Shown: piece by piece, positions 1,607 to 43,489 of the stretch
Position numbering within the stretch: the first letter of the stretch is position 1
Layout of the letters: each line of letters begins with the position of its first letter
NCBI GenBank assembly: GCA_027405735.1
Contig: JAPEHQ010000003.1
Coordinates: forward strand, 1,550,001-1,614,000
Source of the DNA: Mucor racemosus
Taxonomy: Eukaryota > Mucoromycota > Mucoromycetes > Mucorales > Mucoraceae
Length of the DNA stretch: 64,000 nt
Reading direction: 5' to 3'
Position numbers and translations under genes: made by a program
Notes under the pieces: model-generated
What the model saw: the letters and a program-made list of their open reading frames with translations, nothing else
What the model was told of the DNA's origin: nothing
Databases searched by the model: none

Positions 1607-3430
1607 TCAACTACTATATGTATGTATATACAAAGCATCTCTAGATAATATTGCCAAAAACTCATTAAATCCATTGTCTGTATGCTTGATATCAAGTGTA
1701 GGACCATTTGTAGTAAAAGCCTGTATTTGTTCATCTTTGGTTCGTATTTTTACCTAATTTGACATGGATTAATAACAAACAAACCATAATTCTTTATTAA
1801 AACCTACGAAATCTTTTTCAGCATAGCAAAGAAATAAATTATCATTTCTCATAAAATGCGTATTCCTGCAGATTGGTAATGTTTCTTGCTGTACCGTAAA
1901 AGACCAGTCTTCTTTTACAATTAGGGGTTCATTATTATCAACTACTTGATTGATATTATGCTTTATTGTACCATTATTGCTTTTTGAGGTACAAAAAGCC
2001 TTTTCTGTCAAACTAGTGGAGTAAATTGCAAAAGAATCCTGATTGTCCATATTTTTTTCTTGATTTTCGTCTAATATATACAAATGTTGCGCGGTATACT
2101 TTCCTTCTGACCCATCCAAAGTCCAAATATAAGAAGAATGACGATCCGTACAAATAATAGAATTTCCTTTCGGCATCACAGATATAACAGGCGATTCTCT
2201 TTCTGGATTAACCAACATTGACAGATGATTTCTGGTATTTCTAACATCATAAATCATCAATACACCTGTTGTGAGACCACAATAAAGTAAATTCGAGTTT
2301 TTATCATCAAAAGAACAAGCTCTAGAGGGAGCACTTAATTGATAACTATGCAAAATTGTTGATGTCTATTTATTCGAAAAAAAAAAAAAAAAAAAAAAAA
2401 TACTTACGATTGAACCACAAGGTTTTTGACAATGGAGGTCAATTTCAAGGTTTTATCATCACCTGTACTAAGTATCATACTATTTGACGAATGTTTGATA
2501 TCTCTTATGACATTTTGATGATTTGTGGGTATAAATTCCGTCACTGATGTGTCGTACATGTTGATTTTTCTAAATCCATGAAGCCCTTTTGGACTTTGAT
2601 ATGTTGATACAACAGCCATATCTTCCAAAGGATTCAAATCGACTACATTATATACCTTAAAATGACATTAATAGGTGACATATACATATTTTACTATGTT
2701 TACCTCTCCTTCCATTGATATCCTGCTTTGAAAACTAAATTGTCTATTTTGTCGAGGTTCAGGGAGCGTGGATTGAGTGTCCTGAGTTGGTTGAGATGGC
2801 ACTGCTTCAATTCGAGGACTTATATTATCCAGTACAGCTCTATTCTCGGCTAAATCTTTTTTTACAGTTGCATTTTGCAAAGCTAATTCCTCCAATCTTT
2901 TATCCAACTCTTCTAATTCGGATTTCAAGGAATCGAGATACTCTTCTTCCTCGGGAAACAATTTTGTGGGCCATATTTTTCTAATTTCTTTTTTTGTTGT
3001 GATTCGCCTAGATCAGAAAAGTAAGTTTAATGTCATGTATACAAGAGGGTTGATCTGCTTACCCGCATACTGGACAGTTGAATTTGCTATTTTTTGTATT
3101 ATCCCGTTTATACAAATTAATGCATCTAAGAAAAAAAAAAGTAAATATCCTCGAGTTGAGTAAGCATTGAATCTATTAAACCTACGTTCGTCCAAAGCAG
3201 TGGCCACACTTCATTTGAGTTATACAATGTATTCCATTATTGGTCCATTCCTTTTGACATATACCACACACAGTAACATCCTCTTCGTCTTCCTCACTTT
3301 CTACATCATCAATCTTACGCTTATTGTTTTCATCTGGTATAACAATTGGTTCTTGAAAGTCAGAAGAACTGTCAAATACTTCAAGTTCTGGAACATCTAC
3401 TAACTCGTCAGGGTCCAATTCTGCATTCAT
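1607..3430 (-). CDS. RFWD3-like E3 ubiquitin ligase (RING, coiled coil, WD40)
   Basis: Six exons (3430-3186, 3125-3063, 3007-2704, 2655-2408, 2345-1808, 1753-1607) join to about 514 residues with no frame break. An acidic N-terminus is followed by a RING finger that crosses the first intron: CGIC, then KCGHCFGRTCI, then CPVC. A charged coiled coil (EYLDSLKSELEELDKRLEEL) follows, and the rest reads as WD40-type repeats (DDKTLKL, LLYCGLTTGVLMIYDVRN). This order is that of metazoan RFWD3, which ubiquitinates RPA and RAD51 during interstrand crosslink repair; the same role here is inference. The acceptor before SYQLSAP was chosen because it restores a VVQSYQ blade seen in the family. Intron 2407-2346 contains a long poly-T tract on the coding strand. 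Length is shorter than human RFWD3, mainly at the N-terminus. Confidence 0.78.
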
Positions 3431-5666
3431 GAATTGATGTACACACGAAAAATAACCGAAAAAGCAAGCTTGGTCTGCACGTTCAAAAGTAGTATGACAG
3501 GATAATGACTTTTTATGTGCAGTCCCGCGATTTCACTGATAGAAAATTTGATAAAATATCCAATGTTCTGTGTGCCAGATTTCCACAATATTCTTAAATT
3601 ATTTACTAACAAAAAGTATGCACATTTGTTTCATAAGCTGTATTTTACTCTCGAGTAAACATCCCGTTGATATCTTCAACAAAATACCAGGAAAAATTCT
3701 TTAAAGGCAAGTATCCCACTGTATGAGAACCCACCGAAATAATCGTTTTTCCATGGCGAAAAAATCTTTTTTCGAGCTCGAAAACACGAAAAAAACAACA
3801 CATTCAACAACGAGGAACATATTGATACGATTTCTTGCAAATTTGGAGAAATTGAGGTTTGATGAAAATTTGCCCATTTTCGACCATTTTTGGATGAGCA
3901 TCTATAAGGGTTTGGACCCCAAAATCACTAATTTGAAATTTAAATGCAAATATTCTCAAAACTCACAAAGACATTTATAATGAAAAATGTGCATAATTCA
4001 ATACGCTATCACATCCAACCTTTTGATTTCAAATTTCTTATAATTAATTTTGACTTTTGGCAAGAAAACGGGTTTAAGGTTTTTCAAAGAAAACTCGCCC
4101 AAAATTCATTCAATTATTGTCAAACCGGTACCACTGGAACCGCAGAAGAATCGTCTATAAACTACATTATAAGTACCGTACGTGTTAACATAGTATTTTT
4201 CTTTGCTAAATGCCCTAAAAGAAAATTGTTTGTCAAATCGATCCAGGTTTTTAATTTTTGAAAATAAAATTTAATGTCCGGTCTAAGCAGTAATCATCTA
4301 AATTTTAAGACAAAATTCGATGTTTGACTATAAAAAACGTATTATTTGCTTTATTTACAAAAGAAAAAAGTAGGATAGGATACTTGACATCATCAGTAAT
4401 ATTTGAAATAGTTGATATGCTTTTTAGCTTTAATTTTGATTGAGTAACAATTAAAGATGCCGTAATTTTTTTAAGGAGAGTGGTTTTTTTTTTTTTCAAT
4501 TGCTATTCAAGATCTAGCCAGGCGCATTTTTTGTATCGTTCTTTTCACTTTATCTCATGAATTTTACTATTGTATGCATGTTTATCGCCACCCCAATTGA
4601 TGTAATACTATATTTATCAGCGCCAATACTAATATTCATCAAAATATTTCAAGAATTACATACGAATGACGACAAATATCAGTTTGTTGAGAATTGTTTG
4701 GCTTTAAGTTTCCCAAAAAGCATTGTTGGATTGCGATATATATATATATATATATATAAATATCTAATGATAAGATGTATATCCATATGCATGGAAAATC
4801 GCAATAACATTCAAATATGCACTCGTTATATAAAAGATGTGATTGGTGAAGTATCCATTTAGCAAGCTTCTTGGCAAACCGTAATTTGAATGAAACCTCA
4901 CAAATATAAACTGTAAGCATTTGAAACACTGAAATTTAAAAGCAAGTATTGTTGAGAGACATTACATACAGATGATTACGTATCAGTAACCACATGTTTG
5001 GATATATGTGTTTAGCAACTACAATTGGTCTTACATACATTTGCATAGCAGCAGAATATATATAATGGCAAAACAAGTAGCACACAAACATGTACACAAG
5101 GATTTGTGTTTGAAAAAAAAAAAGATATAGTTATTAAATTTTATCGTATTAGATTTGATTAAATAGGTACATGTACAATGACCAAGGAGAGAAATTATCA
5201 ACTAGGCGGCGATATGATACAAAAAGTGTCAATTAAAATGTCGTTCGCTCATTGATTTGCCAAGTGATTTTCCTCATTCTAATCTTCGGTAAGAATTAAT
5301 TAAAGGTAGTACAAGCAAATTGAAAAGAAAAAAAGATCGTCTCTTTTGTAACTTGTATCTTCTCTTTTTGTTTGATCTTTCAATAAAAGTTCTTTTGTTG
5401 GGCTAAATTATAGATGGAAAAGGAGAGCTCCTATAAGGAAAAAAGGCGGGGAGTTTAAAGGGGATTTATGATCATCACTAAAATACGATGTACAATCCAC
5501 AACATAGCTGCTTGCTGTTTCCTTTACTGGAGTCACCTTGATGCGACTCCGATTGTAATAATAAAAGATTTTTTGGGTTGTTTGAGCTTAACCAAGTCGA
5601 GCTATTTCCCTTTTCTTCTTCTTTTCTTCTTTCTTTCTTTTTAAATAAACAAAACTATATAAAAAA
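3431..5666. other. Intergenic, AT-rich, no gene seen
   Basis: About 2.2 kb between divergent genes. Open frames here are short, lack splice partners and do not resemble a protein I know. The stretch 3765-3780 is a small palindrome of A and T runs. A TA microsatellite lies at about 4735-4758. The last 250 bp before 5667 are pyrimidine-rich and are probably the promoter and 5' leader of the transporter gene. Confidence 0.6.
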
Positions 5667-12055: not shown

Positions 12056-13676
12056 ATGAAATTAGCCAGTTATTTCATTTATACGGCTATAATCCTTGTT
12101 TTACACTCGGAGGCAGCAAAAACCAATCATGACGATTCACCTAAATTGCTAAGAATACCTATTAAGCGAAAAGAAAATCTCACGCCTTCAAATAACCACA
12201 CAAAGTTTGGAAAAAGAGCAAATAACGATGTTTCATTGTATAATGCAAACGGAAAAGAATATCTGATTGAAATTGGTATTGGAACACCACCACAGTTCTT
12301 TAATGTCACCTTGGATACTGGAAGGTATTTATATCAATAATAGACACTTTATACATTCAAAAAGTTAATTCTGCCTTTGATACAGCGCTGATTGCTGGGT
12401 TCCTGCTCAATCATGTCCTACTTCCATGTGTCCCCATACTCGTTTTAATAATCAGAAATCATCTTCATTTAAAGCTTTATCTCAGCAGCTTGCCATTAGC
12501 TATGGTGTTGGATCTGCAAAGGGCACTTATGCTACAGATACTTTGACATTAGGCTCCGTTGATGGAACATCCCTGTCAAATTTTACTGTGGGTTTGGTGT
12601 CAAACACCAATAACATTTTGATGGCATCAGAAATAGAAGATGGAGATGCCGCGCCTTCTAATGGCATTTTTGGTTTAGGATACCCTAATCTAAGCATGAA
12701 GACAGGCGATAAACCTGGTCATTTTGTAATGGGTTTGTATCAAGCAAAAACTATTAGTGAACCCATTTTTTCAATCTTCTTGAATACTCAATCTGCTTAC
12801 GGAAACAGTGGAGAAATGCTTCTAGGCGGCATTGACAATAATAAATATACAGGACAAATCCAATATGCTCCTGTAATTAGTTACGATGTATCTAGCTTTA
12901 TAGTTTCGCCTAATTTGGGCGCTAATATGTCAAGTAAAGAAGCAAATAGCCAAGAATCACATCTTTATTGGGCTGTACCTGGTCAAGGAATTGAAACATC
13001 TAGCGGCTATAAACATAATAGCAAAACATTACAAGGCTACATTCTGGATACCGGCACAACATTGACATACGTGCCTTCATCGGTAGCTAAGTCAATTGTC
13101 ATGTCTGTCACGAAAAACGCAAAAACGACTCAATTAGATGCGATCAATGGTGTCTATCAAGTCAGCTGTTCAACAGCAAAACAGAAGGGTTATGTTTCCT
13201 TTTTAGTATCAACTTCCTCCGCAACAGCATCAACCAGTCCAATCTCAATTCAAGTTCCAATTTCTGATTTGATCATACCTTTGGATGATGCACGCACAGC
13301 CGATACATCTAAATCATGTATGTTTGGCATTGCACCATCACCAGTAGGGTTAGATTTAACATCTGGAGAAACATGGATTTTGGGTGAATCAACACTTCGA
13401 TCACTTTATACAGTTTATGATTTAAAAGAGAATCGAGTTGGATTAGCCAAGTTAGCCAATGAAAATAGTGTATCGAATGCAACAACATCAAATGATGCTG
13501 TATCTAATTCCAAATCATCATCATCATCATCTGCTGCTTCTTCTTCTTCTTCTTCTTCTTCTGCTGCTGCTGCTGACGATAAATCCCAAGAAACCAGTGC
13601 AGCTTCATCATTGATGCACTCTTGTTATTTATCACCTGCAATCATAATAATGCTTATCATGGTGATGTATATTTAG
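12056..13676 (+). CDS. GPI-tailed pepsin-like aspartic protease 1 of 3
   Basis: Two exons (12056-12324, 12386-13676) encode 519 residues. A signal peptide (MKLASYFIYTAIILVLHSEA) leads into a basic propeptide that ends at a KR pair near residue 54, a likely Kex2 site. The first catalytic motif DTGSAD is at residue 87 and is cut by the intron inside GS; the second, DTGTT, lies in ILDTGTTLTYVPS. After the domain come long serine and alanine runs and a hydrophobic C-terminus (SPAIIIMLIMVMYI), the pattern of a GPI signal as in yapsins. Paralogues follow on the same strand. The position before W is cysteine (SADCW) instead of the usual leucine, paired with extra cysteines nearby. The serine run is a TCT microsatellite and may vary in length. 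Expected at the cell surface or wall. Confidence 0.93.
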
Positions 13677-13920
13677 TAACATTTATAAATAAAAGTTTCA
13701 CAACCATTCGGTGGATAAATTATCTAATCGCATTAAACATGAATACATCTAGTTTAAATGACGTTTTTCTATCACTTCGTTCCCCCCCCCCTTCCCTTTT
13801 CCCTTCATGGTTTTGTCTCGGGACTAGAATCGGTGTATATTAAAAATTCACAACATGATAAAACCATTATTTTTTGATTAATTTTCCATTTGTTTGTTTG
13901 TTTCTTTTTTCGATAATAAT

Positions 13921-15462
13921 ATGAAAATTACTGTTGCAATTTTGGCTCTTGTAGCAGTCATCAATGCTTCATCTAATGTTGCATTAGAGGATGGCATTCT
14001 TCGCTCAAAAATCATCAAAAATCCTCGTCAGTCAAATCCATTGGAAGTTGCAAGAAAAAGATATCAAATTCTTAATAAAAGAAAGCTTGATAAAAGAGAC
14101 CCATTCAATGCCGCATTATACAATGATCAAGGTTCTCAATATCTCATTGAAGTTGGTATCGGTACTCCACCTCAACATTTTGCTGTGACTCTAGATACTG
14201 GCAGTGCAGACCTTTGGGTTCCTTCGACTGAATGTCCTGCAAGCTCATGTCCATTCTATAGATTTGATACATCAAATTCATCAACATTTAAATCGCTTGA
14301 TAAACCATTTGGTATTCAATATGGCATTGGCAGTGTAAACGGTACTTATGCAACTGATACTGTTTCAGTTGGTGGCGCATCAATTCCAAATCAACAATTT
14401 GGTTTAGCTTCAATTACTGAAGATATCATGCAACCAAATCCTTCTGCTGGTGGTACTGGTTCAAATACTCCAGAGCCATTTAATACATCAGGTTCTGATA
14501 CCGTTGAAGCCAATGGTATCTTGGGTCTTGGCTACCCTTCTTTAACACAAGCGAATAGTCAAGGTGAAGGCGCTTATAATCCTTTTGTCTTTAATTTGGC
14601 TTCTCAAAATGTCATTAAAGAACCTATCTTTTCTATTTTTCTAAATAGTATTTCGGAACCCAATTGGTCTGGTGAAATCATTTTTGGTGGAATTGATGAA
14701 ACTAAATTTGTTGGTGATTTAACTTACTTGCCTGTTGCCAGTTTGACAACAAGGTCTTCATCCGGTGTTTCATCATCTGTTGATGGTCAGAGCAATGCTG
14801 GTTATTATTACTGGATGGTATATGGTCAAGGGATAGGTGTCAAAAATTCCAATACTGGTTCTAACCCAAGTTGGAAATTACGTGAAATTGGTGCTTACAT
14901 TCTGGATACTGGTACTACATTGACGTATTTACCTACTTCTGTTGCCACTGATATTGTCACTGCATTTGCCGGTGAAAGGAACTTTGCTCTGGATCGTCAA
15001 TCTGGTGTTTTCATTGTTGATTGTGCAACTGCTAAAAGTCCTGCCATTTTCCAATTGCAAATGTCTCAATCAAGTTCTGTCAGTGATAATCCTTTGATTT
15101 TAAGTGTCCCTGCGTCTGAATTGGTTATTCCTATTGATGGCACCTCTGCTGATAATGCTCAAGTATGCATGTTTGGTATTGCTCCTTTAGGTGGTGCTGG
15201 TGGTATTGGATCAAACATGTATCTTATTGGTGATTCAGTGCTTCGTTCTGCATATATGGTATTTGATATGGGTCAAAATCGTATTGGTCTTGCTGCAAAC
15301 AAGAATATTGGCGGTTCAATTACAGTTGATAATGTCACAACAAATTCCTCTTCTGATTCTTCTAATACTGAAAACTCTTCTGGTGGTCAGTCAATGAAAT
15401 CTTCAATTATTGTCACTACCGGTGCATTGGTAATCACTGCAATTACTATGGCTGCATTGTAA
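13921..15462 (+). CDS. GPI-tailed pepsin-like aspartic protease 2 of 3
   Basis: A single exon of 513 residues. The start at 13921 was chosen over an in-frame ATG 27 bases upstream because it gives a clean signal peptide (MKITVAILALVAVINAS). The propeptide ends at LDKR near residue 59. The first active-site motif DTGSADLW begins at residue 92 and the second is YILDTGTTLTYLP. A serine/asparagine-rich stalk and a hydrophobic tail (SSIIVTTGALVITAITMAAL) indicate a GPI anchor. It lacks the intron that splits the DTGS motif in both flanking paralogues, so it probably lost it, or was copied through RNA. An insertion rich in N, S, T, P and G sits after the flap region. Function should be extracellular or wall-bound proteolysis at acid pH, by family. 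Confidence 0.94.
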   Translation: MKITVAILALVAVINASSNVALEDGILRSKIIKNPRQSNPLEVARKRYQILNKRKLDKRDPFNAALYNDQGSQYLIEVGIGTPPQHFAVTLDTGSADLWVPSTECPASSCPFYRFDTSNSSTFKSLDKPFGIQYGIGSVNGTYATDTVSVGGASIPNQQFGLASITEDIMQPNPSAGGTGSNTPEPFNTSGSDTVEANGILGLGYPSLTQANSQGEGAYNPFVFNLASQNVIKEPIFSIFLNSISEPNWSGEIIFGGIDETKFVGDLTYLPVASLTTRSSSGVSSSVDGQSNAGYYYWMVYGQGIGVKNSNTGSNPSWKLREIGAYILDTGTTLTYLPTSVATDIVTAFAGERNFALDRQSGVFIVDCATAKSPAIFQLQMSQSSSVSDNPLILSVPASELVIPIDGTSADNAQVCMFGIAPLGGAGGIGSNMYLIGDSVLRSAYMVFDMGQNRIGLAANKNIGGSITVDNVTTNSSSDSSNTENSSGGQSMKSSIIVTTGALVITAITMAAL

Positions 15463-16891
15463 CACCTCCCCGAAAATATTGTATTATGTTGACGTGAATG
15501 TGGAGTTCACTAGAAGATGATTATATATTAACTAATTACAACTTTTTCCTTTCTTTGTAATATCTACTACCTTTGTAATTAAAATTCTATTCATATAAAT
15601 AATAATAAACCCCATATACTTCCTTATCTCATTGAATACATACATCTGAGAATACAATCGTCTTGGCTAAGGCTTTATTAATATTCTCACGAGCTAAAAA
15701 AAAAATTAATTAGTTTTTCTAGACATAGATCAACATTTATCAATTGATAAAATAAACATTATTAATCAAGATTTCGAGTAAAAATCCTTGAGAGGTGCAT
15801 TGCAAACGTATCAGAGCTTAAAAACGGTTCCATTATAAATAGAATTCAGAACTATTTCGGGCCAAAACCCTTGCGAGATAACGTTTAGCATCAATAGATA
15901 TATTGCGTAGTCATTTCATGTGGTTTTCCAGAAAATTTTAGGTGATTGTAAAACATGTGAATTTTGGCCCCATTTGGGTCGAGGTATGGTAAGGGAAAAA
16001 GGTCCGATATCGAAAAATTAAAGTTTAAAGCTAACAAAATCGGGTTTCACTAAAACCTGTCTTAATGAAAAACAACCGCAAAGAGCTCCTCTATCACTCT
16101 AAATTAAAAACTTTTCTATCACATATGCAAATATAAGAATTTTGGTCAAAAAACCATTTTTCAATAATTCAAGGATTCTTAAGTGTATGCCAGTTTAATT
16201 ACATCACGAGTAGTACTATTAAATTCAGCGTGAAATTCCGTACAAAAACGGTTACACCACCCTTTTAGATATATCTATAAAAATGGTACGTAAGATGCCG
16301 AAAACTGTTGATGAAGATCAAAATTGCCAAAAATCATGAAATCCAAAACGAAGATAAAGCCTACATTTCAATCTCCGCTTCTCAAGTCAATTGATTTTTG
16401 ACGGATTCTTGTAAATGGTTTGTATATAACAACAAGCAATAAAAGACACTATAAGCATTTAACAGTATATATACTATTGTATCAAAGCTTTATTTTCAAA
16501 AAACCTGTTTATTAATATGTATCTTATTGCAATTTATGAAGAGATCAAGATTTTTAGCACTGTAATTGAGCTTCGATGATATTTCAGAAAAAATTTGCTT
16601 CCGTTTATATTTCCCTCATACTTGTTCCTTACAATGATCCATTTATGTGAATAATAATATCGCATATAAATCAATCTATTCCAACGATTTCTTGGTGTTC
16701 GATAATACTTGATTGACGCACTTCAAAATATTATATTCACGATGAAACATTTCAACCTTCAAATGATTCCGCAAATTTCATATCTAAATGAGGGGTTTGA
16801 CAAAAAAAAATTTTCAATTTACAAATGTAACAGAATACGTAAATCAAACTTTTTACTTCATTTCCATGGCATTCACCCTGTGTATATATTA
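15463..16891. other. Intergenic, no gene seen
   Basis: About 1.4 kb of AT-rich DNA. The stretch 15780-16480 has short purine/pyrimidine motifs such as GGGCCAAAACCC and TTTTGGCCCC that look like decayed repeat DNA, but I found no second copy in the window. No open frame looks like a protein. Confidence 0.5.
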
Positions 16892-18343
16892 ATGATGATT
16901 AAAGTTGTAATTTTATTCATCTATTTATTTATTATCTCACCAGCACAAGCAAATGGAACCACTATATCTTTACCGCTAGAAAAAATCAACCATCAGGCAA
17001 AACTGCAAAAAAGACAAGCTACACATAAGTTGCAGCTGTATAACAATGAGGGAACAGAGTATTTAATTAATATTGGCATTGGAACTCCCATCCAAAACTT
17101 TACTGTGTCCTTGGATACAGGAAGGTAAATTCTATCACATTTGATTGAAAATCACCCAATATACAAAGGTAAACTAATAAAATCTTTAGCTCTGATCTAT
17201 GGGTACCTAGTATAGCTTGTTCTGAACAAGAATGCCCATATAACCGGTTTGATCCTTCTCAATCTTCTACATTTTCAATTGTCAACGATACACCTCCGTT
17301 TTATATTGCCTATGGTATTGGACAAGTAAATGGCACTTTTGCAAAGGATGATGTACATTTAGGAGACGCATATATTTCTCAGCAAATGTTTGGGATAGCC
17401 TCATCCACAAAAGATCTCATATTAATGTCTAGCTCACCCTCCAATGGCATTTTAGGGCTTGGTTATCCAGCATTAACTTCAGGCAATGTAAAGTATGATC
17501 CGTTTCTGTTCCGACTACAAAAGGAAGGTCTAATTGAAAACCCTGTGTTTTCCATTAGCATGGGATCCGTGCATGATAGTGGCTGGGTGGGCGAAATTCT
17601 TTTAGGTGGTACAAATCCAGAAAAATATGTGGGAGAAATTGCTTATGAGCCTGTATGGGGTGATAAAACCTATTGGATGGTTGGTGGAAAATCGATCCAG
17701 GTTGTCAAGGAGACTACACAAAGTGAGGTCATGCTAAATAGTACATTCGCATCTGTACGAGGCTTAATTATTGATACTGGTACTACCTTGACGTATATGG
17801 ATCATGCCCTTGCAGATGAGATTGTCCGCATGGTAGCAGGGAACGTTGTACTCGATCAAATGTCAGGAATCTACATGATTGACTGTGGAGTAAAAGGAGA
17901 TGCAACAACCGATTATTTTTTGGAATTTACAATGGAGACTACAAAACTTGTTATCCCTATCAAGGATCTTATTTTACCCCTAGGAGGAGAAGGACAACGA
18001 GATGGTATATGCATGTTTGGTATTGCCCCATGGATGACTACAGGAACAAGCCAGAAAATGAACGAGAAGGGCTGGATATTAATTGGAGATTCTGTGCTTC
18101 GATCCACTTACTTGGTTTTTGATATGAAAAATCACCAAATCGGATTTGCTAAAGTAGAGTTTACATTTTATATGCACATGTAACACAGAAACTCATTCAT
18201 GTTTTTTTTAGACTTCTTTACATGCCACGAAAAATGCATTGTCCTCCCTCGATAGTGGTACTCTATCTCCGAACATGTCTTTACATAAACTGAAGATCAT
18301 CTTTGGTGTAGCACTTGTAGTCACTCTAATTCTTAATAGTTGA
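16892..18343 (+). CDS. GPI-tailed pepsin-like aspartic protease 3 of 3
   Basis: Three exons (16892-17124, 17190-18153, 18212-18343) encode 442 residues. I start at 16892 because it opens a signal peptide (MMIKVVILFIYLFIISPAQA); upstream in-frame ATGs would bury it. The propeptide ends at LQKR near residue 41. The first motif DTGSSDLW starts at residue 75 and is split by an intron at the same place as in protease 1; the second is IIDTGTTLTYMD. The long frame stops at 18183, but a GTAGAG donor right after GFAK and an acceptor at 18210-18211 join a short last exon ending in a hydrophobic tail (LKIIFGVALVVTLILNS). This gives the same GPI-like end as the paralogues. It is the shortest of the three, with a short stalk. 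Confidence 0.9.

Positions 18344-39273: not shown

Positions 39274-39310
<37 letters not shown>
39274..39310. repeat. Poly-A homopolymer, about 37 bases
   Basis: An uninterrupted A run between the membrane protein gene and THI5. No retroposed gene lies next to it, so it is probably a nucleosome-free promoter tract rather than a retroposon tail. Confidence 0.8.
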
Positions 39311-39611: not shown

Positions 39612-40709
39612 ATGACTACTTCTACTACTGATAAAATCACTGTACTTTTAAACTGGAAAGCTACACCTTACCATTTGCCACTCTTTTTGGCTTCCAAGAT
39701 GGGTTATTTCACGGAAGAAGGAATTAAGGTTGCTATTCTTGAGCCCAACGATCCTTCCGATGTTACCGAAATTATCGGCTCTGGCAAGGTAGATCTTGGA
39801 TTAAAGGCAATGATTCATACGATCGCCGGGAACGCTCGCGGCTATCCGATCAAGTCTATCGGTACTCTTTTAGATGAACCTTTCACTGGTGTAATTCATT
39901 TGAGCCATAAAAGTGGTATTACAAATGATTTTACTTCTCTTCGTGGTAAACGCATTGGTTATGTTGGTGAATTTGGCAAGATTCAATTGGATGAATTGAC
40001 TAGCCATTTCAATATGACACCCAAGGACTATGATGCTGTTCGTGTTGGCATGAATGTTACTGATGCTATCATTCGTGGTGAAATTGATGCTGGTATTGGT
40101 ATCGAAAATGTCCAACAAGTTGAATTGGAAGAATGGTCTGTTCAACAAGGAAGATCTCGGGATGATGTCAAGATGCTTCGTATTGATGAACTCGCTGAAT
40201 TAGGATGTTGTTGCTTCTGCTCGGTAAGATAACTGATGTTTTACATGAATATAATCATTGGTTTTAATATAATTAAATAGATCTTGTACATTGGTAACGA
40301 AGAATTCATCAAGAATAACCCTGAAAAAGTACGCAAATACCTTGCTGCTATTAAGCGTGCTACTGATGACATGATTGCTGATCCTGTTGCTGCTTACAAA
40401 AAATACACTGAAATGAAGCCTCATTTGGATTCTGATATTAATCGCAAGATCTTTCAAAGATCATTCCGTTACTTTTCTCGTGATCTCAAGAACGTTGAAC
40501 GTGATTGGAACAAGGTTACCAATTATTGTAAACGTCTTGATATCGTTGATAGCGATTTTGTCCAAAATCAAACTAATGAATTCTTGAGTTGGCCAATGCT
40601 TCCCGAATCCCAACCCGGTGTTGAGCCTGCTACTGTCGAAACAGGTGTTGTTGAAGGCGGATGTCGTCGTTGCCAACATAGTAGTATTTCCCTCCCAGTC
40701 TTTGCTTAA
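39612..40709 (+). CDS. THI5: HMP-P synthase, thiamine pyrimidine biosynthesis
   Basis: Two exons (39612-40223, 40281-40709) encode 346 residues. The protein is a Thi5/NMT1/Thi12-type enzyme, which makes 4-amino-5-hydroxymethyl-2-methylpyrimidine phosphate from its own active-site histidine and PLP with iron and oxygen; each molecule acts once. Visible hallmarks are [14 protein letters not shown] at residues 14-27, LKAMIHT with lysine 65 and histidine 69 (by alignment the PLP lysine and donor histidine), and the iron-site motif CCCFC at 199-203. The single coding intron falls directly after that motif. Length matches the family. A TPP riboswitch lies 130 bp behind the stop codon, which makes thiamine control of this gene very likely. 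The stop codon TAA is followed at once by GTAAGT, a good splice donor for a 3' UTR intron. Confidence 0.96.
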
Positions 40710-40837
40710 GTAAGTATCTTTATGTTGATTTTTTGTATAAATTTTGTATACTAACTATCTAATTCTGCCATTTTACCGCATTTTATCTGTTTATTTTCTC
40801 TTTTTTTTTTGTTTTCTATTTATTTTTAATTATTATG

Positions 40838-40952
40838 AACAGACGCTAGGGGGGCCTGAATTTGCTACATTGGCATATTCTTAAATTGGCTGAGAACTTT
40901 AAACTCTTTGTACCTGATCAGGTTAATACCTGCGTAGGGAAGCGTTTCTGTT
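40838..40952 (+). promoter_or_regulatory. TPP riboswitch in the 3' UTR of THI5
   Basis: The conserved thi-box elements are present in order: AGGGGGGCC (J-P2 side), GGCTGAGA, ACCTGATC, GGTTAATACCTGCGTAGGGA. The ends AACAGACGCT and AGCGTTTCTGTT form a P1 closing helix of about ten pairs. The P3 region between GGGGCC and GGCTGAGA is longer than in bacterial aptamers, as usual in eukaryotes. Family knowledge: TPP binding stabilises P1 and P4-P5 contacts and in eukaryotes changes splicing. Here the AG at 40841-40842, preceded by a T-rich tract, is a candidate 3' splice site inside P1. It cannot serve the neighbouring downstream gene, which is on the other strand. Confidence 0.93.
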
Positions 40953-41035
40953 TAATTCTATAATGATAAATAAAAACCTTTATATGAATTGTAATATGCA
41001 TTGGATTTCTTTTTATTATTATGTTAATGTATAAT

Positions 41036-43269
41036 TTATGGAGTATCTTTAGGGCAAATGATTTCTTTATAGTCCTTAATAGTACCAGAAAATTTGTTGA
41101 GCACACCACCTTCACAAATCCAAATTTCATTACAGACAGTATTAATAAATCTTTCATCGTGAGAAACAATAATAACACCACCCTTATATTCTGCAAGAGC
41201 ATCTTGTAAAGCATCCATAGATTCCATATCCAAATGGTTAGTAGGTTCATCAAGAACCAAAATATGAGGATTTTGCATACTAAGGCATGCAAATGCGACG
41301 CGAGACTTTTGACCACCAGATAATGTCTTCATAATTTGAAGACCTACCATACCAGTAATACCAAATGAACCTAAATGACGACGATATTCTTCTTCTGTCT
41401 TACCAGGGAATTGATCAGCCATGAATCCAACAGCATTTTTAGTTAAATCAAGTTGATCAATGTGATGTTGGGTAAAATAAGCAATACGAAGACGACCATT
41501 ACGATGAACAACACCTGAAGATGGTTTGTTTTCTTCCGTTAATAATTTCAACATGGTAGATTTACCAGCACCGTTAGGACCAACAACTGCAATACGAGAA
41601 TCCATTCTTAAATCAATGTTGACATGACGAATAATTGTCTTTTCAGAATTATAGCCAAATGTAACTTCATCCATTTGAAGAATAGGTGGTGACAATTGAT
41701 CAGGATTAGGGAATTGGAAAGTGATCAATTTCTCATCCTCAGGAGGCTCCAAGACGGGTAACTTTTCGAGAATCTTGATTTTAGATTGAGCTTGAGGTGC
41801 ACGTTTAGCATTGTATCTCCAACGGTCGATAAAATCTTGAAGATGTTTACGGTATTGTTCTTGAGATTCATATTCTTTGAATTGAGCTTTACGACGTTCT
41901 TGCTTGGTAGCATGAAAGTTGGTAAAGTTACCCTTGTAGTAATCCAATTTCTCAGAATGCATGTATAAAATATCTGTAGCGACTTCATCCAAGAATTCTC
42001 TGTCGTGAGAAACAACAAGCAATGTATTGGGCCAAGTTTTAAGATAGTTTTCTAACCAAACAATAGCAGGAATATCCAACATGTTATCAGGTTCATCAAG
42101 CATAAGAACATCAGGCTTACAGAACAAGGCACGAGCAAGTGAGATTCTCATTCTCCAACCACCAGAGAACTCCTTGGTAGGTCTCTTTTGTTCGGCAGTT
42201 CCAAAACCAAGACCAGCCAAAATAGCAGAAGCCTTACTTTCAGCCTTATCACTTTCAATTTCGGTAAGTTTGTTGAATATTTCCTTGAGTTCTGTATTCA
42301 ATTGATCCTTTTCAGCTTCGATAGCCTTCTTTTCATCTTCAGATAATTCCTCTTCGTGATCTTGTTCAGATTCGAGAGCATTGATTCTTAAAGACAAATC
42401 ACGCTCTTTACCGAGCAAATGTTCACGCCAGACATCAGCACGAAGAACCATTTCAATAGCAGGTGTATCATCACCATGCACCTACAATTAATTAGAATAA
42501 AGTTGCCATATAAACAAATGTATCCACTTACTTCTTGTTCGACATAAAGGAGCGAAATGTGTTGAGGTACAGAAATTTCACGACGAGACATGGCTCTAAG
42601 CAAAGTGGATTTACCGATACCGTTTTTACCAACAACACCATAACGTCTACCAAATGCAACTGTCAAGTTGGCATCTGTTAAAATACGACGACCAGCAAAT
42701 GAAATATCAAAGTTCTCAATCTTAATGTCCTTGTTCTTTCCTTTGGTAGTAGTGTAATCCAAAATAGGATTGTACAATTTGTATTCTTCTTGCAATGCTC
42801 TTTGTTCATCCAGCAAACGAGAAGCTTCGTATTCTACCTTCATGTTGCTCTTTTCATTACGTTTAGCCATCTTGGCAGCAATCTTTAGCTCTGCTTTACG
42901 TAATTTATCTTGGTTGACTTGAGATTGAACACGACGACCTGAAGCATGTTCTAAATCAACAGCACCTCTACCGAGACTAGAAGTAGCGGATAATCCAGTT
43001 TGGCTACCCATAGTAAATGAGTGTTCTAATTTAGAAAGCTTGGCTGGAGCAGCAGCCTTTTGATTTGCTTGTAATAGACTCGATAAATGTTCACATAATT
43101 CATCAATTTTATCCTCATCGCCTCCAGCGTCAATTAAAATAGGCTTTACAAAATCAGCAATGGCATCTTCATCATCTTCAAAATCATTTTCTCTAAGGTA
43201 GCCATCAATATATTCGATAATGGCTTCATCAGCTCCGGGCACTGCCTTTCTAATAAGCTGAATAGACAT
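41036..43269 (-). CDS. GCN20: ABC-F ATPase, Gcn20/ABCF3 type
   Basis: Two exons (43269-42532, 42481-41036) encode 727 residues. It has a Gcn20-like N-terminal domain of about 190 residues (MSIQLIRKAVPGADEAIIEY) and two ATP-binding cassettes without membrane helices. The first cassette has Walker A GKNGIGKST, signature FSGGWRMR and Walker B VLMLDEP; the second has GPNGAGKST, TLSGGQKSR and ILVLDEPTNHLD. The first Walker B continues DNMLD instead of TNHLD, a change worth noting. Gcn20 works with Gcn1 on the ribosome to activate the Gcn2 kinase when amino acids are short. The start at 43269 was chosen because it begins the conserved N-terminal domain. It shares a 220 bp promoter with eIF3l. Confidence 0.94.
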
Positions 43270-43489
43270 TCTATAGGTTGCTTTAACAAAGAAGCTGAAC
43301 GAAAACTCTTTCTGTAACTTTTTGAAATGTTTAATCAACCGCAGTATCTCGGTGGCTTGATGTTATACCATCTCTACATTCGTGAAAAAAGTGACTCGAG
43401 ATCCTCCTATCTGTTTGTCCTTCCCTATCGAAATAGAATTTTTTGGGGGGATGTAAGGTTTTTCTTTTTCTCGAAATACAAAATACGAA
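43270..43489. promoter_or_regulatory. Divergent promoter between GCN20 and eIF3l genes
   Basis: Only 220 bp separate the two start codons. The block is pyrimidine-rich on each side. Two translation genes sharing one promoter region suggests common control; no defined element is identified. Confidence 0.6.

Follow-up and report, generated by a model that had tools for sequence, protein, structure and literature searches.

Does a fungal TPP riboswitch act from behind the stop codon of its gene, and by which route would it do so? Fungal TPP riboswitches are 5′-leader or internal-intron splicing switches, and control from the 3′ untranslated region (3′UTR) is known in plants and has been proposed in some algae. 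However, the initial annotation of a 64,000-nt stretch of Mucor racemosus DNA (the whole stretch analysed, hereafter the window) placed a TPP riboswitch at 40838-40952, about 130 bp past the stop codon of THI5 on the coding strand, and pointed out the contrast with the known 5′-leader switches of fungi.

The THI5 locus and its aptamer

The whole window was scanned by cmscan against all Rfam families, in which the gathering cut-off for TPP (RF00059) is 54.3 bits. At the gathering threshold, exactly one Rfam match was obtained, the TPP aptamer, which covers the full model (1-105) with 68.0 bits at 40838-40957 (+). The covariance-model search for this family thus bore out the annotated riboswitch, and the span given for it was essentially right. 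The features of the locus are:

39612..40709, plus strand: THI5/NMT1 (HMP-P synthase) coding region, from ORFs, Pfam NMT1, and homologs
40224-40280, plus strand: THI5 coding intron, picked by eye from a frame-consistent listing of GT..AG pairs
40707-40709, plus strand: THI5 stop codon TAA, from the ORF list
40838..40957, plus strand: TPP riboswitch aptamer RF00059, from cmscan (68.0 bits)
40843..40847, plus strand: P1 core 5′ strand ACGCU, with its partner at 40941-40945, from the cmscan alignment and pair list
40913..40938, plus strand: P4-P5 arm of the aptamer, from the cmscan alignment and pair list
40969..40974, plus strand: AATAAA, candidate poly(A) signal 3′ of the extended P1, from the sequence
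41036..43338, minus strand: convergent ABCF-type ATPase gene, from ORFs and Pfam

Pfam NMT1 matches both THI5 exons, and the joined protein (346 aa) shares 92% identity with one from Mucor hiemalis. Between the THI5 stop codon and the aptamer lie 128 nt, so the aptamer starts 129 nt past the stop, close to the distance first annotated. The cmscan alignment shows every core thi-box element said to be visible (CUGAGA, the G-rich P2 strand, UAAU in L5, and GCG), and the long P1 helix proved real as well. Its extension pairs 40838-40843 with 40947-40952 and includes a segment AACAG; flanks of 26 and 28 nt including P1 pair at −13.9 kcal/mol, and 10 of 1000 shuffles paired as well.

The next gene downstream is convergent. 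Its piece 41036-42481 matches ABC_tran in two stretches and ABC_tran_Xtn, and the Pfam scan of this piece gave ATP-binding families only, with no membrane-domain family; we take the ATPase to be of the GCN20-like subfamily. The plus-strand aptamer is antisense to this gene, and the ORF list holds no plus-strand ORF of at least 80 aa starting between the aptamer and 43843. The alternative named in the initial annotation, an unannotated plus-strand gene with the aptamer in its 5′ leader, is therefore unsupported, and we conclude from the arrangement of these genes that the aptamer most plausibly belongs to the 3′ region of THI5, not to the leader of another gene. The identity of the aptamer and its site behind the THI5 stop codon are solid; the extent of the 3′UTR, at THI5 as at the other three aptamer genes described below, is presumed from the sequence. 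Elsewhere in the window, a run of 37 A lies upstream of THI5 (39274-39310), and neighbouring ORFs at 12426-18183 resemble, by eye, secreted aspartic proteases in tandem.

TPP aptamers across the genome

The genome (53.2 Mb in 54 contigs) was searched with the covariance model; scoring covered 49 of the 1057 first-look candidates, and matches were accepted at E ≤ 0.001. Four TPP aptamers were found in this candidate set, and all four (4/4) lie 3′ of a same-strand stop codon, namely those of THI5, THI4, and two transporters, A and B, with stop-to-aptamer gaps of 128, 122, 243, and 245 nt, respectively. Transporter A is on contig 8 and transporter B on contig 4; both belong to PF00083. The three aptamers outside the window scored 52.3, 46.9, and 44.5 bits, which is below the 54.3-bit cut-off, with E values from 4.4e-8 to 3.6e-6; when the E limit was relaxed to 10 in the same candidate set, the next matches reached 20.9 and 19.7 bits. 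The annotated contrast with fungal 5′-leader switches is strengthened by these three further 3′ aptamers. A motif-pattern search returned eight sites: the aptamers already found, plus four more sites that are not aptamer-like, one of which (L018) gave no match when rescanned. No Neurospora-type 5′UTR aptamer was found in the window at gathering level, nor in the genome at E ≤ 0.001 (49/1057 candidates scored).

The cmscan alignments contain the CUGAGA and GCG motifs and paired P1, P2, P4, and P5, with some non-standard pairs in P1-P3, and AGGGG is present in all four aptamers and in the family consensus too. By hand count on the alignments, all eight P4/P5 pairs are standard in 4/4 aptamers. 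Six of the eight are changed on both sides across the four copies, the transporter copies being related and the changes partly non-independent; such both-sided changes support a real structure.

The genes associated with RF00059 here, THI5, THI4, and the two PF00083 transporters, are of thiamine type, the transporters as candidates. Transporters A and B share 52% identity across their aligned region, carry their aptamers at nearly equal distances, and differ in their downstream neighbours. One transporter of the genome is 98% identical to a Mucor fragilis protein, and the homolog search found close relatives of transporter B in many Mucorales. The fetched stretches of either transporter hold no second aptamer, both known ones lying 3′ of the stop, and the three next-closest transporter paralogs (L022-L024) have none at all in their fetched flanks. 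As members of the Sugar_tr family with 3′ TPP aptamers, the two proteins are candidates for the transport of thiamine or a precursor.

Among ORFs of at least 70 aa, the plus strand 3′ of the THI4 aptamer contains only two, of 70 and 85 aa (about 5.3 kb fetched), and the fetched region 3′ of the transporter B aptamer only two overlapping ones of 120-124 aa, which start inside the aptamer and have a low-complexity look. Downstream of transporter A, a same-strand ORF of 103 aa lies about 0.7 kb off and one of 561 aa, phosphate-permease-like by eye, about 1.65 kb off. Taken together, these results argue for a genome-wide 3′ placement of TPP aptamers, a firm pattern as far as the search reached.

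Searches for relatives gave none in viral contigs and none in plasmids, and the genome contig search gave two loci, both in bacterial MAGs (L032 and L033). The contig L032, from a MAG labelled Pseudomonadota, carries a TPP aptamer of 67.9 bits at 2579-2674, ahead of a THI5-like gene at 3001-3576 (best-segment identity 56%); this looks like a bacterial THI5 controlled by a 5′ TPP switch.

The candidate 3′UTR intron and the folding of the aptamer

The initial annotation had read the 3′ site as control through 3′-end processing or message stability; the 3′ position stood, but this interpretation had overlooked splice signals between the stop codon and the aptamer, namely a donor, a branch point, and an acceptor in P1:

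40710..40842, plus strand: candidate 3′UTR intron of 133 nt, GTAAGT...AACAG, from the sequence and its splice signals
40710..40715, plus strand: candidate donor GTAAGT, directly after the stop, from the sequence
40749..40755, plus strand: candidate branch point TACTAAC, from the sequence
40786..40793, plus strand: TCTGTTTA, a repeat of the P1 3′ strand sequence, from the sequence; paired in the minimum fold of the whole 3′UTR
40838..40842, plus strand: AACAG, candidate acceptor that forms part of the extended P1, the first AG past the branch point

The candidate branch point is followed by a pyrimidine-rich, AG-free stretch that runs up to AACAG, and the repeat at 40786-40793 is able to pair with the acceptor segment in place of P1. 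In tests set up after these signals had been seen in the sequence, GTAAGT directly followed a stop-like triplet at one of 7884 such triplets on both window strands, and TACTAAC lay 20-70 nt past GTAAGT at one of the 47 GTAAGT sites on both strands; in each case the single hit is the THI5 site. Two of the coding introns picked by eye likewise begin with GTAAGT. A looser motif, also chosen after the sequences had been seen, combines a stop-adjacent GTA with CTAAC and occurs in 2/4 aptamer genes (THI5 and transporter B), compared with 26 of the 7884 stop-like triplets, THI5 included; it was found at none of nine control gene ends (ORF ends assumed to be true gene ends). THI4 and transporter A lack it within the scanned range, and a donor of this kind in transporter A, seen by eye and uncounted, lies one base outside that range. 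No AATAAA occurs inside the THI5 candidate intron; in both transporters, AATAAA sits between the stop and the aptamer.

Coding introns for comparison were taken by eye from the frame-consistent listing, except for one from an automatic finder and two, in THI4, from the sequence. Ten of the 11 measure 50-65 nt and one 120 nt, and the 133-nt length of the THI5 candidate, with about 90 nt from branch point to AG, counts against a splicing model. So does THI4, which has no good donor past its stop (by eye) and an extended P1 that is not significant. The THI4 3′UTR (L002:1379-1511) does hold an acceptor-like TATTAATTTTTTTTTATAG, together with a CTAAT that precedes the CTAG of the aptamer by about 20 nt, and it is conceivable that the last coding exon of THI4 is skipped.

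The extended P1 was compared with shuffled flanks in the other aptamers as at THI5. In the transporters, whose aptamers (L003:1501-1655 (-) and L004:1440-1615) have very long P1 helices, 0/1000 (A) and 14/1000 (B) shuffles were as good; in THI4 the pairing was no better than chance (254/1000). The THI5 aptamer alone has a folding energy modestly below that of its shuffles (z −1.78, 12/200 as good), and its minimum-energy fold forms the extended P1, P4, and P5, canonical P2 being absent. The fold of the whole THI5 3′UTR is no more stable than its shuffles (z −0.33). When a longer RNA was folded, the preferred structure was a different one, with the P1/P2 5′ strand base-paired to the end of the coding sequence (40690-40699), a pairing at chance level (126/400 shuffles as good). 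Constraining the RNA to form the aptamer core raises the ensemble energy by 5.7 kcal/mol, and TPP binding in the nanomolar range could make up for such a gap. The acceptor AACAG is paired in the aptamer-only fold and in the free and constrained folds, so the fold calculation, with the acceptor paired in both states, shows no gating.

Pairing of the donor with P4/P5, the mechanism of plants and Neurospora, is no better than chance at THI5, where the donor window ranks 61/178. The best pairing of the THI5 3′UTR with the P5/P4 3′ strand lies away from the donor, and 349/1000 shuffles were as good; the corresponding counts were 124/1000 for THI4, 25/1000 for transporter A, and 1/1000 for transporter B. 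When four aptamer segments were tested in each of the four genes (16 tests, uncorrected, 400 shuffles each), only the P5/P4 strand in the transporters beat chance (11/400 and 7/400, with 200/400 for THI5 and 88/400 for THI4). The complementary segments of the transporters are not at candidate donors (ranks 155/294 and 87/295), and these 3′UTR stretches, strongly complementary to their own P5/P4 strand, may act as anti-aptamers. Because the P5/P4 strand beats chance in the two transporters only, we make no claim of a plant-like pairing at THI5. Two matches seen by eye were also dropped: a 12-pair match between the THI5 donor and P5, for which window starts of 40698-40708 gave ranks from 57th to 186th among 238, and an 11-pair match in THI4, abandoned as proof, whose window ranks 14/172.

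On balance, and at a little better than even chance in our judgement, the TPP riboswitch in the THI5 3′UTR would lower THI5 output when TPP is plentiful, likely via splicing of the candidate intron. The putative donor adjoins the stop codon and the putative acceptor sits in the extended P1 of the aptamer. In the form that we favour, bound TPP would lock P1 and hide AACAG, the intron would be retained, and the intron-retaining THI5 message would be poorly exported or quickly degraded; at low TPP, alternative pairings would open P1 and the intron would be removed. Ligand binding, splicing, its direction, and the fate of the RNA are predictions from these signals, among which splicing control of the 3′UTR intron appears likely. 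As to direction, we lean modestly towards TPP inhibiting 3′UTR splicing rather than promoting it as in plants: closure of P1 over the acceptor is favoured because the extended P1 has statistical support and the donor pairing has none. Both directions exist in nature, since plant THIC and Aspergillus oryzae differ.

Known TPP switches and rival explanations

The literature cited here describes how the two directions come about. In plant THIC, TPP exposes a 3′UTR donor, splicing removes the poly(A) site, and the resulting long message is unstable, whereas in Aspergillus oryzae thiamine inhibits splicing of a 5′UTR intron (PMC10226581). Spliced plant THIC is described as lacking about 7 nt of the aptamer 5′ end, and most other plant species analysed as having an intron directly after the THIC stop codon (PMC5853225); the acceptor in plants and green algae is given as the AG of AGGG in P2 (PMC9544697). 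M. racemosus THI5 is like plant THIC (Arabidopsis, cassava) in carrying the same aptamer class in its 3′UTR. Its candidate 3′UTR intron, known from sequence signals, would end at the 5′ edge of the aptamer as in THIC, and would directly follow the stop, as an intron does in most of the other plant species analysed. Unlike in plant THIC, the gene is THI5, donor-aptamer pairing is unsupported, and AATAAA lies behind the aptamer rather than within the intron. With Neurospora NMT1 and THI4 (type I of fungi), it shares orthologous genes, the aptamer class, and probably splicing as the output; however, the Neurospora aptamers lie in 5′UTR introns and act via upstream ORFs, and those described here lie past the stop codon.

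Both THI4 and THI5 are well known in fungi as genes under TPP-switch control, and the 2018 survey, in the sections cited here, gives 5′UTR and internal-intron types, lists a Mucor NMT1 switch, and names as its one 3′UTR case a TPP match on Postia placenta eIF5B for which the authors' structural validation was unsuccessful (PMC5882874). This match is likewise fungal and in a 3′UTR, but eIF5B is not a thiamine gene. In Candida, TPP switches are placed in 5′UTRs and internal introns (PMC5997356). The 3′UTR TPP switches on THI5-like genes of Micromonas and Aureococcus resemble the Mucor THI5 case in gene and position; these are algae, however, and the genes are single-exon and intronless (PMC4260697). 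The 2024 survey describes NMT1, THI4, and sugar-transporter aptamers in Mucoromycota, placing the last (TPPsw-SUGAR) in the 5′UTR 'consistently' and elsewhere in 'most' cases (PMC11683625). Our genome agrees in that 2/4 aptamers are on sugar-type MFS transporters, but both of these lie 243-245 nt 3′ of the stop. The same survey assigns aptamers in Mucor irregularis and M. lusitanicus to ABC-type ATP-binding proteins without membrane spans (PMC11683625). Because the ABC ATPase beyond the THI5 aptamer matches ATP-binding and no membrane-domain Pfam families, we infer that these may be the same THI5-aptamer-ABCF arrangement filed under the wrong gene. In the literature searched, as far as its cited sections go, we found no report that assigns a 3′UTR position to the aptamer of THI5, THI4, or a transporter in any fungus.

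Three other explanations were weighed against TPP-controlled splicing. The aptamer might act on 3′-end formation without splicing, in that an extended P1 stabilised by TPP would mask or expose the AATAAA at 40969-40974. We consider this unlikely, although it has points in its favour: both THI5 and THI4 (L002 1622-1627) have an AATAAA some 16-26 nt 3′ of P1, the THI5 copy is fully paired when the aptamer is forced (unpaired probability at most 0.10), and THI4, which has no convincing intron donor, needs a splice-free route. However, even in the free fold all but one of the six AATAAA bases are mostly paired, the arrangement is not shared by the transporters, where the nearest AATAAA in the stretches covered is upstream of the aptamer (L003 1756-1751, L004 1325-1330), and the splice signals of THI5 are left unexplained; moreover, a diatom THIC aptamer that overlaps a predicted poly(A) site is described as showing no such response (PMC9544697).

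That diatom case bears also on the idea that the Mucor aptamer is a relic, or a TPP binder that regulates nothing, since diatom 3′UTR TPP aptamers are reported as conserved and yet the one on Phaeodactylum THIC as unresponsive to thiamine (PMC9544697). Here, however, four aptamers on thiamine-type genes keep their binding motifs, with the P4/P5 pairs standard throughout, and we regard a relic as improbable. Far less credible still is a 5′ leader of an unannotated downstream plus-strand gene. Such a leader would fit the known fungal TPP switches, which lie in 5′ leaders or internal introns, the 5′UTR position that the 2024 survey gives for sugar-transporter aptamers of Mucoromycota (PMC11683625), and the two same-strand ORFs downstream of transporter A. 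Against it, the plus strand past the THI5 aptamer is antisense to ABCF and free of ORFs of at least 80 aa before 43843, THI4 and transporter B have only short downstream ORFs in the fetched stretches, and the genes that recur with the aptamer are the upstream ones.

Collectively, these results suggest that the mould probably controls THI5, THI4, and the transporters through the 3′ part of their messages, in a manner somewhat like that of plants. More tentatively, and at somewhat less than even chance, in Mucor and perhaps in Mucoromycota at large the TPP riboswitch set would work from the 3′UTR, for THI5 through a stop-adjacent intron with its acceptor in the aptamer; this would amount to a fungal parallel of plant THIC control, arisen independently on THI5, THI4, and transporters and misfiled as 5′UTR in surveys. 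The finding suggests that surveys may put some Mucoromycota aptamers at the wrong gene end or on the wrong gene. With all four detected aptamers behind genes, Mucor offers a fungal case in which 3′UTR riboswitch control is testable, and it bears on whether plant-type 3′UTR control evolved more than once.
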